Position numbers and translations under genes: made by a program | The notes under the pieces: model-generated | Databases searched by the model: none | The model's input: the letters and a program-made list of their open reading frames with translations, nothing else | Told to the model about the DNA's origin: nothing | Source: Erythrobacter sp. | Lineage (GTDB): Bacteria; Pseudomonadota; Alphaproteobacteria; Sphingomonadales; Sphingomonadaceae | Reading direction: 5' to 3' | NCBI GenBank assembly: GCA_009993635.1 | Contig: JAACTC010000005.1 | Span: 248,001-312,000 of the forward strand | DNA length: 64,000 nucleotides | Shown: piece after piece, positions 39,192 to 47,367 of the stretch | Position numbering within the stretch: position 1 is the stretch's first letter | Layout of the letters: every line of letters starts with the position of its first letter

Positions 39192-42100
39192 CTAGTCCGG
39201 TGGATCCTTGTCGGTCCTGCTCCGCAGCGACGCGACGTGATCGTAGGCGAGGATCGAGGCGATGTCCTCCGAGTCGTAATCGGGTAGCATCCAGTGGAAG
39301 CCGCGTAACGCCAGCGAAAATCCATCCTCTGGAAGCTGCGGCTGCCAGATGCTGGAGTGACCGCCATTTTTTGCTTGCGACGCACTGCAGCGCGGTTGGA
39401 GGCGAGCCAGCTCGCGGTATGACCAGTAAGACCACGCATGAGCCGCCAGCCTTACGTCCGGCAGCGCGACCTTCCCAATCCGTTCGCGCTGATAATACAG
39501 AACCACATCATTGCGCCCGGGCGACTGCTGCACGCTCACGAAATAGTCGATCAGATCGCGGTCGCGGGGCTTCGCACGGCCCGCGCGGTTTCGTCGCACA
39601 GTGAACGCTCTTTCGATCTGGCGCTTGAAATCGTGACTATCCAACTCTTTACGAAGATCGCTACCCTTTAACTCGAAGTGTTGCAGGATCCGCTTCTGGA
39701 TGTGATCCGGATCGTACATCAATCCATAGTCGGGGTTCGACGTGTTCGGCTCGAAATCGCAAAGCGACGAAAGAAACCTCTGGTAGAGCGCATCCGCATT
39801 GCCTTCCAAACCTTCATGCGGGGGGCGTTCAACCAAGTCCAAATTCTTTATGTTGAGCTCGTCACCTAGTTTCAGCCCCGCAAAATACCCGTAGAGAATC
39901 CCGCCGATATGCATTGCGCGCGCCCGGCGCAGGATACGCGAGACCAATTTTGCTGCGGGGGTTGAACGGGACCGGTCGGATTTCAGGCGCACTTCCTGGC
40001 GCAGATGGAAAAACTGCTCGCTACCTTCCTGAAGGTATTCGGGCGGAGTGGAGAATCTTTTGGCCTTGGCCGCAGCACTATTGCTCGTCATTGCGCGGGC
40101 AACGCATTGCGGCCGCAGGTGCAGGTCCGTTCGGGACACCATCCAGTCGTTGAAGATCGCCTGCTGAATGAGGAAGACAGTTGCAAGCCGATTGGGCGTT
40201 TCGAGCCTGTCTGTTCGCGCCCCGTGGGATTCGGGATATTCGCACAGGACGAGCATCAGGTCGCCCCAGCCTTCCGTCAGGTAGGCATGATCGCCTTCTT
40301 CGAAGAGCACCCCGATCTGCTCGATCGATGGCGAACCGAGGGGCATGACGTAGCCACCCATCAGACTTTCACTCGACACGCCGGGGTTCTGGCCCTTCGC
40401 TTCCTCCGCCTTGCCGATGATCGTGCGCAACCGCGACAGAAATTCGAGCCGGGAATGCCGTCGGGCCAGTCTGATGGAGATGAATGCCAGCACATCCGGC
40501 TCCGGCTTATCCGGGCTCACGATGATACCTTGAGACTCTGCGGCAATATCGCTCGTGGACTTCAAACCGCCTTGCCTGCTCAATTCCAGCGGAGTCCCCT
40601 TGATGCTGCAGCGCAAGCCCAATTCCCGCCGTTCAAGAAAAGGAAGAATGAACCTTTCGCTCAGGTAACTGGGACGCCGGATCGGTTCGGCGGTGGCATT
40701 CTCGTTTGGCGCTTCGATCGAGGACACGATGCCGTTCAGGAATTTGGTTGCCTCGTCCTCGGCATTTCGCGGCAGGGGCTCACCCTTCGCTATCGCAATG
40801 ATCACGTCGATCAGGAATGGTGTATTCTGTCGATCCTTGAAAAAATCCTTGGCGGACTCCAGCAGGTTATCGAACGCCAGTCCGACATTCTTTTCATTAT
40901 GATCCGAGCTCGAAGTCAGCCTGAAGGCTACCTCATCCCGGATGTAAGGCAGCAGGTCATCGGCTATCGTTTTCAGGTCTTCGGCGAAATTCCCGTACGG
41001 CGGACGGCGGATGTTGGCGTAAAGGATGATCCAGAATATCTCGTACCATTCGCGGCCCTTGAGACACATAAGGGAACCGAGCGGCCCATGGTTGACCTGC
41101 ATGCGCTCCTTGTGAAGCAATAGCTCGGAGCGGCGGAGCGGGGCGCGCGGTGCCGCATTGCCCGGTGCCGTCCTCACCCACATCTGGTATGCCTTTGCAA
41201 GATCGCCAAGCACTTCACGCAGGGTCTGCGGCACGCTCAGGTCGTGGCGCTCCTGCACCGGAAGCCTCCAGCGCCATTCTCCGGCAGCATCTGCCACCAT
41301 GATGGAATCGTATTTGCCCAGCACGTTGAAGCTGCGCAGAATCTGGGGCGGCTTGGTATCCTCGCCGGTACGCCATGAAATATCGTAATAGAAGCGCGCC
41401 CGATCGAACCGGTGAATGCCGTCGATCGATTGCGGGCGCTGCGGATCGACCCAGAACTTCAGCGAGTCTGCGATCGATATGCGGGAGAGCTTTTTGACCG
41501 TTATCCTGTCGAGCTCTTTCGAGCCGCGATTTTGCCTGCCGATCGCGCCGATGGCGCGCCTTATATCGTCCAGCTCGCGCAGCGTGTCTTTGTGATGCTC
41601 GATCTCCTTGTTTCGGGACCAGGCATTCAGGTTGTGAGCGAACTCGAATAGCGATGAAAACTCCGGCTGTTCGTGAAAACCGGCATTTTCGAGGATGTCG
41701 CCAAGCGCGCCGACCTTGCAGCGGCAGAGCACTTCGTAAAATTCGATCGTTTCTTCGGGAAGGCGTTCGAAGGACCGCCAGGGGCGCTCGTCCATACTTT
41801 CCCTGCCAGCGCGAGGATAAAGGGCCAGCAGATGCAGCGCGCCAAAGCGGCTGATATGCTCGTCCTTGGGGAAGGCCTTTGCAACCTTGCGATGCACCAC
41901 CTTGCCGGCAGATCTGCCCTGGGCCTGTGCAGCATCGATGAAGGGCCGGACTTCGGCAGCCTGCGCGATGATCTTGCGCCGCAGATCGTAGCCGGTGCGG
42001 GCGAAGGGCTGCGTGGAAGTGGTGGTTTCTGAAAGGATTCCGGAAATGAGAGATCGGGAAACTTCCGCAATCTGCCTCTCGATACCGAACCGCGTTTCCT

Positions 42101-44678
42101 TTTCCCCTTCGTCTGAAATTTTCCGGATTGCTGAAAACAGCGCCTCGGCGGTGTCCTGACCGAGGTACCAGATGACGATCTCTTCGATCAGCAATTTACC
42201 ATTTACCGACTTTGGACCCACGGCGTCGCGAACGAGCGAATAGGGCGATTCGCAGACCGCCCATTGCCAGGAGTCGCCGGATGCTTTTTCCCGCGCGTAT
42301 TCGCGTGCCAAGGTGTTGAGCAAAAAGAGGTAGTCCATTTTTCGGTCGGCCGGACCAGGCTCGATCGACCGGGACATCGAGATGTTTGGATCGGAGAACA
42401 GGTTGACCACCCGCCGAACCGATGACCGAAGCCGTTGAACCGGCCGCTTCTTGGCGAAAGAGACGAACTCCAGCGCGGTGAAATAGCTCTCGCGCCCCGG
42501 TGAGAAGTCATGACACAAGGCCGTCAGTTCGAGCGGTTCGGAGCCCCTGGCGGCATTATGGCCGTAAGCTTCGCTCAATCCGAACGATCGCGCCCGCAGC
42601 AGCCCGGCCTGCCACGGAATATCATAGGCATATCGGAAGATCGGGACCGAATGTCGCTTGTGCTCTTCGGCTAACTTTCGCTCGCTGGCAGGCACGCCAG
42701 GCAGATAGTTCTTGAAGAAGAATCTGACCTGTTCCTTCAGCTCTTCGTTCGGATCCTCGTACAGGGACTTATCAAGCCGCCGCGCGCGATCGATCTTCTG
42801 TGCGACAAGATTGTCGATGAGCTGGTCGCGAACCTCGGGATACAACCTCTCGGTGTTCGCGAAGCCATGGAGGGGAACGCCATCTTCTTCCCCCAGCGCA
42901 CACTTATCCAAATTTTCCGCGTTTTCCCGATGAGATTTTACCGCCTCGCAAAAGCCCGACTTGTCGAGCACTTCCTCCATATCCTCCAGCATCTCGCGCC
43001 AGTACGGGCCCCAGTTGGCGTGGAATTGCTGACACCGCTTTTCGACAAATTCGAACAGGATGCGGCACAGCAGATCCGTACCCTGAAGGAAATCGCCGGT
43101 CAGAACCCTGGAATCGCTTTCCCGCTGCGTTTTCTCGATCCACCGGCACAGCAGGCGCAAGCGGATGTACCATGAGGCATCGAGCGGTACTTTTCCGAAC
43201 ACGCCGACGGACGAAAACCGCGTCACCGCCATCGACAGGTCCGAAAGGCCGTCCGCCTGAGGGGTGTTGAGAATGTCCTGGAATTGATAGCCAATCAGCT
43301 CTTGCAGCAGCGCGTAGAGGTAGGAGGGGCCGTAAACGGTCGCGGCAAGCAGGTCCGACATGATTTCGATCACGAGCTCGCGCGTGTCTATGTGATCGCG
43401 CTCCCAATAGCTTAGGCCGTGATAGTTGTTCATCTCACGCGAGAGCCCACGAATAAGCTCGGTGAATTCGTCCGAGTCCTGCAGTCTGCCGAAATGAACC
43501 AGATCGTCGAAATGCGATCTCAGAATTCCGTGCGCGCACTCGTGTGCCAGCAGCGGTTGCAGATCCGGCCGGTCGGGCATGAAGAACGAGCTGTGGACCA
43601 GGTGATAGGCGAAAACCGGCCGCCCCTTGGTGGCGTTGATGGACTGCGAGCTGCGAAAGCTCTTGGCGCTGTCAATCAGCGGAGTGTTGAGCGCGATGTT
43701 CTTCAGCCCGGAAAAATGCATTGCGGACGTCTGTTCGAAGTCGAATTTGCCTGGGTATTTCTTGGAGAAGAACTCCTCCAGCTCGGCGTAAATGCTGATC
43801 GTCTTTTCGGCCAGGTTGTCGTTGTAGAGGCCCTGCTCGCGCCGGCGATCCATAAACGGACGAAGGCGATCCTGCGTTTCGAGATCGAGAATCTTGTCGA
43901 GCTGCCCCTTGAGGTCGCGGAACGCGTCGATCGAAACGTGCAGGTTGCTCATCGCCCCGGCACGCACGATCATCAGCTGTGAGATCGGATCGAAGTTGTC
44001 GACAAACCTGCCAAGCAGAAAATGGCGGTTATCGGGGTCGGTAACATCCTTCTCGTAAAACTCTTCGTTGGCCAGGTGCCGGGTCGCCTGCTTCACCCAC
44101 CAGCACAAGTGCAGCTTGTCGATCAGGATGTTGCGCTTGAGAGACTGTAGCGCATCGAAGCAGCGATATTCTGCCAGAAATGCTTCGTCGATCCGGCCGG
44201 TATCGTGGCAATGCCGCACGCGATCCTTGATCGGGTGGACGATCCGCTGGCGATAGAACGGGGATGCAGTCTCGCGGATGACATCCTTGAAAGCCACTTC
44301 GCCGTCGCGCGCGAGATGATCCATCGGATCTTGCCGCTTGTCGATGATCGAAGGGAGGCGCGGCACCCACACTTCGGAAAGGTTCGCGAAATCGTGCGGG
44401 CCGATCCGGATATCGTCGAACAGATCATCCCAGGTGCGCTTGCGCCCCTCGGTGGGCTTCTTCCCCGTTTCGAGGCGCTCGACCGTGCACCACAGATAAT
44501 CCTCTTCGAACCGCAGGAGCATATTCAGCTCGGAAATGTCGAGGACGTACGAAAGGTTCGTCTGGAAATGGCGCGCTTCCATCAGCAGGATGTCGAGGCG
44601 TTCGATCATGTCGGCAGACAGGATCACCGCCAGATCGCAGATGTTGTCGATCGCGCTGCGGGTGCTGGTGCTAGCCAT
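39192..44678 (-). CDS. giant uncharacterised protein with an HExxH metalloprotease motif
   Basis: 1,828 residues, no signal peptide and no clear membrane segment. I recognise no family over most of its length. At residues 379-383 it has HECAH, preceded by a hydrophobic LLA and followed about 55 residues later by ELVIEIMSDLLAA (E438, D442), the spacing of a gluzincin-type third ligand and a common bacterial pattern. The rest is helical and charged, with no P-loop, nuclease or TIR motif that I can see. The ATG at 44678 overlaps the stop of the membrane-protein gene by eight bases; a longer in-frame start at 44732 would overlap it by 62. It looks lower in GC than the flanks and sits 47 bases upstream of ribB. 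Confidence 0.85.
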   Translation of the reverse strand: MASTSTRSAIDNICDLAVILSADMIERLDILLMEARHFQTNLSYVLDISELNMLLRFEEDYLWCTVERLETGKKPTEGRKRTWDDLFDDIRIGPHDFANLSEVWVPRLPSIIDKRQDPMDHLARDGEVAFKDVIRETASPFYRQRIVHPIKDRVRHCHDTGRIDEAFLAEYRCFDALQSLKRNILIDKLHLCWWVKQATRHLANEEFYEKDVTDPDNRHFLLGRFVDNFDPISQLMIVRAGAMSNLHVSIDAFRDLKGQLDKILDLETQDRLRPFMDRRREQGLYNDNLAEKTISIYAELEEFFSKKYPGKFDFEQTSAMHFSGLKNIALNTPLIDSAKSFRSSQSINATKGRPVFAYHLVHSSFFMPDRPDLQPLLAHECAHGILRSHFDDLVHFGRLQDSDEFTELIRGLSREMNNYHGLSYWERDHIDTRELVIEIMSDLLAATVYGPSYLYALLQELIGYQFQDILNTPQADGLSDLSMAVTRFSSVGVFGKVPLDASWYIRLRLLCRWIEKTQRESDSRVLTGDFLQGTDLLCRILFEFVEKRCQQFHANWGPYWREMLEDMEEVLDKSGFCEAVKSHRENAENLDKCALGEEDGVPLHGFANTERLYPEVRDQLIDNLVAQKIDRARRLDKSLYEDPNEELKEQVRFFFKNYLPGVPASERKLAEEHKRHSVPIFRYAYDIPWQAGLLRARSFGLSEAYGHNAARGSEPLELTALCHDFSPGRESYFTALEFVSFAKKRPVQRLRSSVRRVVNLFSDPNISMSRSIEPGPADRKMDYLFLLNTLAREYAREKASGDSWQWAVCESPYSLVRDAVGPKSVNGKLLIEEIVIWYLGQDTAEALFSAIRKISDEGEKETRFGIERQIAEVSRSLISGILSETTTSTQPFARTGYDLRRKIIAQAAEVRPFIDAAQAQGRSAGKVVHRKVAKAFPKDEHISRFGALHLLALYPRAGRESMDERPWRSFERLPEETIEFYEVLCRCKVGALGDILENAGFHEQPEFSSLFEFAHNLNAWSRNKEIEHHKDTLRELDDIRRAIGAIGRQNRGSKELDRITVKKLSRISIADSLKFWVDPQRPQSIDGIHRFDRARFYYDISWRTGEDTKPPQILRSFNVLGKYDSIMVADAAGEWRWRLPVQERHDLSVPQTLREVLGDLAKAYQMWVRTAPGNAAPRAPLRRSELLLHKERMQVNHGPLGSLMCLKGREWYEIFWIILYANIRRPPYGNFAEDLKTIADDLLPYIRDEVAFRLTSSSDHNEKNVGLAFDNLLESAKDFFKDRQNTPFLIDVIIAIAKGEPLPRNAEDEATKFLNGIVSSIEAPNENATAEPIRRPSYLSERFILPFLERRELGLRCSIKGTPLELSRQGGLKSTSDIAAESQGIIVSPDKPEPDVLAFISIRLARRHSRLEFLSRLRTIIGKAEEAKGQNPGVSSESLMGGYVMPLGSPSIEQIGVLFEEGDHAYLTEGWGDLMLVLCEYPESHGARTDRLETPNRLATVFLIQQAIFNDWMVSRTDLHLRPQCVARAMTSNSAAAKAKRFSTPPEYLQEGSEQFFHLRQEVRLKSDRSRSTPAAKLVSRILRRARAMHIGGILYGYFAGLKLGDELNIKNLDLVERPPHEGLEGNADALYQRFLSSLCDFEPNTSNPDYGLMYDPDHIQKRILQHFELKGSDLRKELDSHDFKRQIERAFTVRRNRAGRAKPRDRDLIDYFVSVQQSPGRNDVVLYYQRERIGKVALPDVRLAAHAWSYWSYRELARLQPRCSASQAKNGGHSSIWQPQLPEDGFSLALRGFHWMLPDYDSEDIASILAYDHVASLRSRTDKDPPD

Positions 44679-46248
44679 TTCGGATCTGTTCCGTGTTGAT
44701 GAGGTGGGGGCCGGGCGGGGCGTCGCTGGCATTCATGGCGGCGATCATGGTGAGCAGCAGGGTCGCGTAGCCCACCGTCGCGACCGCAAGAGACCAGACC
44801 GTCGCCTTGGCTTGAATACTGGAGACCGCAACGGGCAGCTCGTCCGCCTCCACGTCAGGAATCAGCGAAATCGGCAAGCGGCTGAAATCGCGATAATGGC
44901 GCGCTTCATGCAGCACGAAGTCGTTCTCGAAGTGACTCCACTCGATCATCGTGAAGAAGCCGGTGGCCACCAGCCAGGCAATGACCATCAGGGATGCCTG
45001 TTCGGGGGAGACCGACTTTGTGGCGGTGAAGAACAACACCACCACTCCGGATGCCCACGCGGGCGACCAGCAGTAGAAGAAGTACTTCAGTACCGGCAGG
45101 TAAGTCAGGCCGAACCCGTTGGGCCGGTCGGTCATCTGATTGAGAAACGGGTTGAGCAGCGAGATCGCGGCAGCGTTGGATAAGGCCCAGGAGGTTGTGT
45201 TCCTTCCGAACCAGCTGGCGGGGGAGCGGGCATAGTAATTGGGGACGAGGAGCGCGCATATCAGCGCACGCGGAAGCCTGAAAAGCTCGTTCAATTCATA
45301 GATCACGCGTTCCGATATCGGCGAAGATCCCTTCATCGGGCGGTCCCGCGATCCGGTCAGCACCACCCGGATTCTGGTCATCAGGTTTCGTACCCGGATG
45401 AGACAATGAGCTACGAATGGGAATGGCCTGCGAAGAGCGACCCGTGCCCACCAGCTGCGCCAGGCATTCGGCCATTTTGCGACGCCAAGCGAAAATGGCA
45501 TCATCAATGCCCGCATCTGGCGGTATTCGGCGTGCGGCAGGTCTCCGAAGCGCAAGGGGAGTACCGGAACGGCGAGAACGACGAATAGGAGCGTGGGAGC
45601 AAGCCAGGCCACCCATCCGAGCACCTGCAGCAGGACGAATAGCTCATCCCGAAAATCCGAGGCTTCGAACCCGCTTTTCACCGTTCCGTGCAGGTACAGC
45701 AGCCACACCAGCACCGGCGGGGCGGCCCAGAAGACTCCCTTGACCAGGAAGCCCTTCGTCTTCCGCCAGCCCTTGGCGAAGATCATGGAATCGACACCGC
45801 CAGTCGTGGCTTTGATAGCGATATAACTGATCGGGATGCACAGGAAGGCTACCGCAATGCACATCACGGCCAGCCTGGGCGAAAGCGTACCAATCGGCGC
45901 GATAGCCGCGCTGCCGGCGAGGATGTAACCGAAGGCCAGAAAATATCGCGCCAGCCTGCCCGGCACCAGATAGACCTGCTCGACCGCGTTGCTGCCCGGG
46001 ATCCTCCAGTTGAAATTCGCGGGGCCGCGAAGCTGGCGAATGATGCTCAGAAAATTGGGCGAGCCGGTGGTCAGAAAGAACAGAGGGATGGGCCTGAAGG
46101 CAAATCGCAAATTGCGACGGACATGCAAGCCGAGTGCCGCGAACAGACTGACCTGAAGGAAGGCGACCTGAACGAATACGAGCTCGAAGATCGTACTCGG
46201 CGCACCGACGCTTCCATCCAAAAATGTCGCAATCGGTCCGTTCAGCAT
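44671..46248 (-). CDS. polytopic membrane protein of the accessory operon, with an HExxH motif
   Basis: 525 residues with roughly eight to ten hydrophobic segments, no family recognised. A long basic loop (about residues 235-325) separates two membrane halves. Near the C-terminus, after a hydrophobic stretch, HEARH occurs at residues 447-451 in the segment NDFVLHEARHYRDF, facing a soluble, acidic loop before the last membrane segment. One HExxH can arise by chance, but its partner gene has one as well. The start is ATG 46248; a TTG 42 bases upstream is possible. Translationally coupled to the giant gene. Confidence 0.8.
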   Translation of the reverse strand: MLNGPIATFLDGSVGAPSTIFELVFVQVAFLQVSLFAALGLHVRRNLRFAFRPIPLFFLTTGSPNFLSIIRQLRGPANFNWRIPGSNAVEQVYLVPGRLARYFLAFGYILAGSAAIAPIGTLSPRLAVMCIAVAFLCIPISYIAIKATTGGVDSMIFAKGWRKTKGFLVKGVFWAAPPVLVWLLYLHGTVKSGFEASDFRDELFVLLQVLGWVAWLAPTLLFVVLAVPVLPLRFGDLPHAEYRQMRALMMPFSLGVAKWPNAWRSWWARVALRRPFPFVAHCLIRVRNLMTRIRVVLTGSRDRPMKGSSPISERVIYELNELFRLPRALICALLVPNYYARSPASWFGRNTTSWALSNAAAISLLNPFLNQMTDRPNGFGLTYLPVLKYFFYCWSPAWASGVVVLFFTATKSVSPEQASLMVIAWLVATGFFTMIEWSHFENDFVLHEARHYRDFSRLPISLIPDVEADELPVAVSSIQAKATVWSLAVATVGYATLLLTMIAAMNASDAPPGPHLINTEQIRNG

Positions 46249-46373
46249 TGCCGGACCGGCAAATAAGATCGCATGACACCCCCGCAGCAAAGGTGCGCGG
46301 AAGCGATTTTCAAATCAAGTACGTATTTGCGGGTGGGCAGGCCCGATGAGCGTGCCTGAAGTAAAACCGGCGA

Positions 46374-46742
46374 TCAGTTGTTCGTCGGGCCTAGTCGGCG
46401 CAGCGACATCGTTTTGGTCTGCAGGGCTCCGCGGCTCGGCGAGATATATCTCGACGGGGGCTTTGCACCGGATAGCTTCGCACGATCGAGTGCCGGCGCC
46501 CAGTCCTGCGGGTTGCGTTCGTGCCGTTCGCGGCGGAACAGTTCTCGCTCTTCCAGTGAAAGGCCGCGGCCTTCGAGTTTGGACAAGCGGGAATCAATTT
46601 CTCCTAGATTTTCGCGAACGGAAAGCATGTCGCGGTTCAAGGACTGCATATCCCGGGTAAGGGACTCACCATTCTCCCGAACGGCTCTCACCTCATCCGC
46701 CAGGTTTACCGCCCACTTTGGCGGGGTATCGTCAGTGCTCAT
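46374..46742 (-). CDS. small coiled-coil protein, first gene of the accessory operon
   Basis: 122 residues. Residues about 10-55 form heptads (VRAVRENGESLTRDMQSLN onward) expected to be a coiled coil; the middle is charged (EERELFRRERHER) and the tail is basic and unstructured. No family recognised. The ATG at 46742 is preferred: AGAGGA sits eight bases upstream, whereas the in-frame ATG at 46751 has that site directly abutting it. A 125-base gap separates it from the membrane protein, so the operon link is likely but not certain. Confidence 0.6.
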   Translation of the reverse strand: MSTDDTPPKWAVNLADEVRAVRENGESLTRDMQSLNRDMLSVRENLGEIDSRLSKLEGRGLSLEERELFRRERHERNPQDWAPALDRAKLSGAKPPSRYISPSRGALQTKTMSLRRLGPTNN

Positions 46743-47291
46743 AGAGGCCATCCTCTTTCGCGTTGCTGCTAGCTGGCCTCATGCGCTCCCGCACCCCCCA
46801 TCAACCTGAAGAAAGACTGCGGCGCGATAACCAGTTTGCACGAAGTAGGCAAGAGACCCAGTTCGTGGTCCCATGTAGGGCGCAGAGGTGATAAATCCAG
46901 GTGCACTAACTTGGCTAACAAGTAGTTGCGGGAAAACCGGGATCTTATTCGAGCCATTCGGCACGGCGACACCTGCATTGAATTGAAACGCCAATTGTGG
47001 AAACTGCACTGACGCCAGATGTTTCCCGTTCGATGGCGATAAGGTGCAAGCTATACAACCTCACGGCAAATGGTGCGGGGCAAGGCTGAGGATCGATCAG
47101 AACCGACCCCAAAAAAGAGCCCACCCTCGTTCAATCATCGCATGACCGGCAAGCTGCGTCGGTCAGCGCAGCCGGTTATCCACCCGGAGCACGTCTCTCG
47201 CACCTATCTCCGGCCCAAAGGCGCAAGGCAGATGCCTTTGCGGCCAGCAAACATCGCTGGTCCGGCTATCAGGATGAAATCCTTGGAAAAA
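46743..47291. other. 550-bp intergenic region without a recognisable gene
   Basis: Between the accessory operon and tRNA-Lys. It looks lower in GC than its surroundings and holds only short overlapping open frames with no ribosome site, signal or recognisable domain. It presumably contains the operon promoter. I see no integrase remnant and no copy of the tRNA 3' end. Confidence 0.6.

Positions 47292-47367
<76 letters not shown>

Follow-up and report, generated by a model that had tools for sequence, protein, structure and literature searches.

The 64,000-nucleotide stretch of Erythrobacter sp. DNA considered here (contig JAACTC010000005.1, positions 248,001 to 312,000 of the forward strand; hereafter the window, meaning the whole stretch) carries three minus-strand genes, the best reading of which is a mobile, self-contained system grouped around a giant putative zinc metalloprotease, which would represent an unnamed gluzincin-like family with the signature HExxH...ExxxDxxA...GPxY...R. 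In functional terms we propose a membrane-associated and ligand-controlled metalloprotease conflict system that may cut a cognate partner, and the probability assigned to this full mechanism is 0.45 at most. The genes follow each other codirectionally in the order small protein (46374-46751, 125 amino acids), polytopic membrane protein (44671-46290; 539 amino acids if translated from TTG or about 525 from the first in-frame ATG near 46248) and giant. Counted from its first ATG, the open reading frame (ORF) of the giant occupies 39192-44732 and encodes 1,846 amino acids; the start at M19 (44678) gives a product of 1,828 amino acids (39192-44678) and an overlap of eight bases with the membrane protein ORF (44671-44678). 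Three codirectional genes with such an overlap between the last two had been described in the original prediction, and these ORFs were re-found, the overlap holding for the M19 start. Hydropathy scanning according to Kyte-Doolittle marks six hydrophobic segments in the membrane protein and none suitable for a signal or membrane anchor in the giant, and the small protein, judged by eye, is probably a coiled coil with a basic C-terminal tail rich in Pro and Ser. As it had been stated from the letters of the DNA, no meaningful family is available for any of the three products in Pfam, PADLOC and NCBIfam: the giant has no Pfam match even at E up to 10, including the profiles of M48 (PF01435) and ImmA/IrrE, and no NCBIfam match up to E 1, and a sequence search against solved structures gave no match for it either. 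In PADLOC-DB 2.0.0, proteins P0001 and P0002 have no match up to E 1, and P0003 has only a chance-level one (E 0.055). None of the three operon genes matches a helix-turn-helix (HTH) profile in Pfam, and no repressor gene is apparent within the operon.

The zinc-enzyme identity of the giant is well supported, with a predicted gluzincin-type site composed of HECAH (residues 397-401 in the 1,846-amino-acid numbering used throughout; 43530-43544, minus strand), which would supply two zinc ligands and the catalytic Glu, and of EIMSD (residues 456-460; 43353-43367, minus strand) with E456 as the predicted third ligand followed by D460. The HExxH motif alone is not convincing because 3-10% of shuffled sequences carry such motifs: among 5,000 shuffles of the 1,828-amino-acid protein, 10.5% contain HExxH, and in 3.0% it is followed by ExxxD 20-90 residues further on. 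The argument comes from comparison with six other giants, 19-27% identical to that of the window, where most of the remaining sequence diverges while the zinc-site residues stay fixed. The 18 invariant columns of this set include H397, E398, H401, E456, D460 and R524, together with G468 and Y471 from the GPSY motif (residues 468-471; 43320-43331, minus strand) and E52, H55 and Q57 from the conserved N-terminal motif ERLDxLLxExRHxQ (residues 44-57; 44562-44603, minus strand). A seventh giant, from locus L188, possesses HEVAH and ELAVD, and HECAH is also recovered by the signature search described below. The L197 fragment, one of the eight rows of alignment A3, stops short of the motif, so its row is no evidence for the zinc site. 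A gluzincin layout of HECAH at 379-383 with E438 and D442 downstream had been proposed in the numbering from M19, which corresponds to 397-401, E456 and D460 here; the positions proved to be right, and the two downstream partners are confirmed because they, like the motif itself, are invariant in all six giants, though the motif alone could be a matter of chance.

An ExxxD downstream of HExxH is an arrangement of the peptidase type, which counts against the idea that the giant is an alpha-ketoglutarate/iron HExxH oxygenase modifying or oxidatively cutting the C-terminal tail of the small protein in the manner of pathways for ribosomally synthesized and post-translationally modified peptides (RiPPs). 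We consider this idea quite improbable, also because the window giant, the only one compared with NCBIfam, has no match there up to E 1, and this library presumably includes a model of that hydroxylase. No radical S-adenosylmethionine, multinuclear non-heme iron-dependent oxidase (MNIO), exporter or other RiPP gene was noticed alongside. What speaks for an oxygenase is the presence of a small fast-evolving partner gene and the reported precedent of HExxH proteins with zincin-like fold which proved to be such oxygenases of RiPP pathways and act on the C-terminal part of a small precursor, one of them cutting it at a C-terminal motif (PMC12636437; PMC13060819).

Relatives of the giant were reached through a DNA pattern of the zinc signature, composed of HExxH, 49-59 residues, ExxxD, two hydrophobic-leaning positions, Ala or Gly, and GP. 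Scanning of genome contigs returned at least 117 stretches, and among the matches listed 47 were in-frame, of which L124 (BLASTP E 5e-62) and L088 (E 2e-34) are clearly related to the giant; further relatives beyond these stretches probably exist. Whole-genome searches from L124 and L088 extended the set by seven places distributed over six genomes: G928 (locus L172), G929/G1026 with two loci (L173 and L174), G1145 (L180), G1029 (L181), G1434 (L188) and G957, where the gene spans two contig ends (L197/L198) and is counted once. The length of giants across loci varies from 1,044 to 1,846 amino acids. A single-sequence search with the window giant found its own genome as the sole match among 296 genomes of the order, 397 of the family and 385 of the class. 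Profile searches, whose counts include the own genome wherever it belongs to the set, detected such giants in 4 of the 398 genomes from the phylum (3 besides its own), in 2 of 229 from the class of G1145, in 3 of 48 from the class of G1026 and in 1 of 190 from the class of the window, this one being the window's own genome. The system is rare and patchy across distantly related bacteria. Searches with the window giant returned nothing from plasmids (the sole match, once E up to 10 was admitted, being an IS66 segment with E 8), nothing from phages and viral contigs, and nothing from genome contigs queried by six arbitrary 8-mers; the related giants P0006 and P0010 are likewise without match in plasmids, and the membrane protein of the window has none in plasmids and only matches with E 0.6 and 2 in phages. 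Alignment A1 gave 71 pattern stretches in viral contigs with none confirmed, and the first version of the signature gave 10 matches there, all chance or unrelated on reading; its second version gave four candidate matches in these contigs.

A recurring three-gene module is well supported. In agreement with the original prediction, which placed the giant in one operon with a small coiled-coil and a polytopic membrane protein, a multi-pass membrane ORF adjoins seven of the eight giants and a small ORF of coiled-coil look (by eye) likewise seven of eight, L174 and L181 being the exceptions, so that the association recurs as gene layout. Loci L172, L180 and L188 repeat the window's order of small protein, membrane protein and giant on one strand, the membrane region of L188 reading as two ORFs. 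At L173 the small gene lies on the opposite strand, and in G957 the membrane gene precedes the N-terminal part of the giant and the small gene follows its C-terminal part. At L174 the giant is split over two ORFs, small genes flank it on both sides and a membrane ORF was not seen. At L181 the giant reaches the contig end, and a membrane ORF with nine segments is convergent. The membrane proteins have little sequence in common: likeness was found by BLASTP only for L173 with L188 (E 1e-6 to 2e-5) and L188 with L197 (E 0.001), and that of the window matches none of the others significantly. Two pairs of small proteins, L173-L188 and L174a-L174b, have similar tails (0 of 2,000 shuffles each). The first pair (L173:11733-12143 and L188:7205-7552), coming from different genomes, has the common C-terminal tail LVEP...(F/Y)(K/R)R.R....R, the remainder being divergent; the second (L174:5714-6241 and L174:6772-7173, on opposite strands beside the split giant) has the common tail DWxxxLDDD and MEPV...RLxPP upstream.

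In the window the three genes belong to an inserted accessory block of about 8.1 kb (approximate ends 39184 and 47291), situated between the flank of an HTH-like gene (to about 39183) and a tRNA-Lys (ctt) gene (47292-47367, minus strand, tRNA gene call), which makes the right border of the block and serves as an insertion hotspot of the genus. The fraction of guanine and cytosine in 2-kb windows is 0.57-0.60 within the block versus 0.60-0.66 in the rest of the window. The outer flanks contain enolase to one side and, opposite, RodA, PBP2, MreC and MreB, and the HTH-like gene to the left is, by eye, also kept in congeners devoid of the block. Both flanks are present in every one of the 10 genus genomes; the giant and the block at this site are absent from all nine others. 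The two flank matches lie 8.1 kb apart in the window. Judged by the same distance, the site is nearly empty in four congeners, G297 and G474 (about 110 bp), G449 (223 bp) and G523 (292 bp), has inserts of approximately 0.8 kb in two, G345 and G509 (about 830 bp), and large ones in three, G495 (11.3 kb), G387 (15.2 kb) and G422 (20.4 kb). The earlier suggestion of an accessory block is therefore borne out by low GC, by the lack of the giant in nine of nine congeners and by a site either empty or differently filled. The insert of G387 encodes a NotI-type restriction enzyme, a C5 methylase, a primase-polymerase and an integrase-like gene, that of G422 a type I restriction-modification (R-M) system and an integrase, and a repeat of the tRNA-Lys 3′ end is found in both. 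In the window a second copy of the tRNA-Lys end was not found and the block has no integrase, so insertion by a tRNA integrase present in the window is unsupported. The same two absences are what could be quoted for a decaying insertion devoid of current function, an assumption with very little credit in view of three intact ORFs, one of them of 1,846 codons, and a fully conserved active site. Two minor observations concern the other inserts: a 982-amino-acid minus-strand ORF of G495 (L027:1503-4451) without Pfam or PADLOC match is a candidate gene only, and the 0.8-kb insert of G345 (L029) resembles, by eye, a decayed outer-membrane efflux gene of the TolC type.

Defence and mobility genes also appear beside some of the relatives. 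The neighbours were scanned with PADLOC for five chosen genes (three in L172, one in L174 and one in L180). In L172 (2514-6003) an ietAS pair lies within 2.6 kb of the three-gene set in convergent orientation (IetA E 3e-79, IetS E 2e-37), and in L174 a KAP NTPase gene starts two bases past the second half of the giant (Pfam E 2e-35; PADLOC PDC-S20 E 6e-97). Genes of TnsC-like (AAA_22, TniB) and TnsD/TniQ type are located directly upstream in L180, and this relative resembles in its position the defence cargo of Tn7-like transposons. Cargo of this type is rich in defence genes, 26% of such transposons carrying a described innate immune system (PMC8649781); the main text of that paper uses none of the terms "metallo", "HEXXH" and "peptidase" and does not describe the present cargo under them. 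Farther along in G1145 (L180/L201), a long minus-strand ORF upstream of the Tn7-like genes has by eye the look of TssM from a type VI secretion system (T6SS), and a 684-712-amino-acid ORF before TnsC in L180, without Pfam match, is TnsB-like by position only. Four related giants and one related membrane protein gave no match in PADLOC. The carriage as cargo (tRNA hotspot, Tn7-like genes, ietAS and KAP) fits an anti-phage or anti-plasmid system. The possible link to defence raised at the beginning remains plausible in the light of these neighbours and of the R-M systems occupying the same site in two congeners, and we lean slightly towards a role in defence or against mobile elements.

According to the proposed mechanism, the protease would act beside the inner membrane together with the polytopic protein, and a C-terminal ferredoxin-like domain would be the switch that responds to some small molecule or to a cue of infection. 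Once switched on, the protease would cut a cognate partner. The likeliest target is the small fast-evolving protein, cut at its C-terminal tail or ahead of it, or else the membrane protein, and the cut would release or open a membrane-acting effector leading to growth stop of the infected cell. The idea of a cleavable tail was adopted because tails are alike in two pairs, as in the pairs of PMC7159879 discussed below; cleavage of a cognate partner is held tentatively. The domain assumed to be a switch emerged from AlphaFold2 models built from eight-row alignments. The model of residues 1100-1846 has a mean predicted local distance difference test (pLDDT) score of 43 and attains confidence only in a stretch of about 130 residues, where a beta-alpha-beta-beta-alpha-beta domain is predicted at residues ~1413-1539 (40116-40496, minus strand; pLDDT mostly 70-82, loops 43-60). 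The best Foldseek match of this domain is AsnC (E 0.025, probability 0.90), and the top ten of VIA-align (Z 6.3-6.9, root-mean-square deviation 2.4-5.7, 73-87 residues) are by title of the Lrp/AsnC family bar two entries, 2cvi and 2djw, which we take to be stand-alone Lrp/AsnC-type domains. Likeness to Lrp/AsnC is only a lead, because Z under 8 may reflect merely a common arrangement, and a ligand-sensing domain of this kind is possible.

Several results weigh against this reading as a whole. Defence or mobility neighbours were met at three of the seven relatives, the flanks of L173 and L197 being ordinary by eye, and no convincing pair of Tn7 terminal repeats was found around L180. The insert of G495 at the very same site is a metabolic operon with TonB-receptor, SapC, cupin and tryptophan-halogenase genes, because of which location in the hotspot alone does not mean defence; taken together, the R-M elements and the halogenase operon show therefore that the site takes several kinds of cargo, defence included. 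With respect to the partners, comparison of the window membrane protein with the others yields an hhalign P of 0.43, worse than the best shuffles, the tail of the window small protein is weakly like one other (p 0.045), and the eight tails together are not more alike than random body segments (p 0.72). What recurs is the gene layout, the two partners in the window having no demonstrated homology to those of other loci. The model of residues 19-800 is poor (mean pLDDT 55; 65-69 in the HExxH helix and 73-84 in the ExxxD helix), and neither Foldseek nor VIA matches of this low-confidence catalytic region include a protease or zincin fold. A profile search of solved structures returned nothing for alignment A3.

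Ordinary flanks at some loci (L173 and L197, by eye) are among the arguments for understanding the giant as an accessory envelope or protein-quality-control protease in a role similar to that of M48/HtpX, with the membrane partner as a platform and a benefit under niche stress rather than against phages. The recurrence of the membrane partner is compatible with such a role, as is the weak Peptidase_M48 match of one short relative, L095, which lies below the cut-off (E 0.013). The very sparse distribution, the hotspot site and the ietAS, KAP and Tn7-like neighbours point instead to a mobile conflict gene and render the envelope protease unlikely. The giant does resemble M48 peptidases (HtpX, BepA) in HExxH with downstream ExxxD and in the membrane connection; it differs in that the membrane part is a separate protein, in GPxY and a distant Arg, and in that no M48 profile exceeds the cut-off for the window giant or four relatives. 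A further alternative, in which the giant is a toxin delivered in interbacterial competition and its partners provide export and immunity, would accommodate its large size and the T6SS TssM-like genes noticed by eye upstream of the Tn7-like block in G1145. This is hardly to be expected, since the giant has no signal or anchor segment, Pfam shows no domain for toxin delivery in it, the order and overlap of the genes speak for a complex in the cytoplasm, and the T6SS-like gene occurs at one locus only.

Among known systems, small cytoplasmic HExxH enzymes ImmA/IrrE and CapP from mobile elements and the cyclic-oligonucleotide-based anti-phage signaling system (CBASS) cut a cognate HTH repressor and have Pfam models. 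The conflict system proposed here is similar to them in that an HExxH enzyme is tied to mobile elements and plausibly to defence and would cut a cognate partner, and dissimilar in giant size, lack of a Pfam match and no apparent repressor gene in the window operon. The nearest published analogue for a zincin accompanied by a small fast-diverging protein is the peptide-processing pairs of VMAP/FtsH ternary conflict systems, in which a metallopeptidase is paired with a small diverging protein and the C-terminal peptide is the conserved part (PMC7159879). Common with this description are a zincin-like gene placed beside that of a small fast-diverging protein (seven of eight giants) and the conflict context; different are the size of the enzyme (1,044-1,846 amino acids), the membrane protein as third gene and conservation of the tail in two pairs only. 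No vWA, MoxR, VMAP, AP-ATPase or FtsH-ternary partner was noticed in the part of the neighbours scanned, with no search dedicated to them. Titles and abstract openings of the open-licence literature contain no description of the three-gene set that we could find. Should the proposed reading be true, it would contribute a defence module centred on a protease, for which the gene set is named, the signature can be searched and the catalytic residues are defined.

The signature is also carried by shorter proteins. Among the matches listed, 18 of them (open frames of 375-611 amino acids) were chosen by eye, and hhalign aligned them to the giants with probability 96.9, a value which is partly there by construction because the search demanded seven common residues. 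Alignment A5, comprising 16 of the 18 (L086 and L160 dropped), has nine invariant columns, of which a Pro and an Arg go beyond what the search required; the region of this Arg corresponds in the alignment to R524 of the giants. A GPxY-like motif is found in the shorter relatives too, its GP being demanded by the pattern. No Pfam match above cut-off was obtained for the four shorter proteins scanned, and A5 met only helical chance matches among solved structures. The zinc domain of giants and shorter proteins is unnamed in the libraries used (Pfam and, for the window giant, NCBIfam). Scanning of ten neighbouring genes in five loci revealed nuclease, kinase, ThiF or dCTP-deaminase-like neighbours at four: sigma-70, PD-(D/E)XK and PIN in L121 (2-7341), a protein kinase in L127 (2700-4818), ThiF about 1.6 kb from the HExxH gene in L073 (617-4893) and a dCTP-deaminase-like gene overlapping the HExxH gene by four bases in L164 (3192-5188); the fifth, L163 (3120-5631), has neighbours with only weak matches of sigma/LuxR type. 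These loci look like a separate multi-gene conflict system. The protease-effector logic of the proposed mechanism was drawn from them, because it is such genes that the shorter zinc-domain relatives adjoin. A broader generalization, rather doubtful in our estimation, would define a new immune-system class with a giant membrane-tethered metalloprotease and built-in small-molecule sensor, in which a metabolite produced by infection leads the protease to liberate a membrane-killing peptide or pore, and in which the zinc domain of shorter proteins acts across phyla as a general "proteolytic trigger" for nuclease, kinase, ThiF and deaminase effectors. If the main reading is right, it also exposes an unnamed zinc-domain family whose members, in several phyla, neighbour nucleases, kinases and a nucleotide-depleting enzyme, and it makes testable the question of whether a metalloprotease triggers cell-suicide effectors in the way of caspase-like and trypsin-like proteases. 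Several of the loci with shorter proteins additionally have an ORF of 140-180 amino acids directly beside the HExxH gene.

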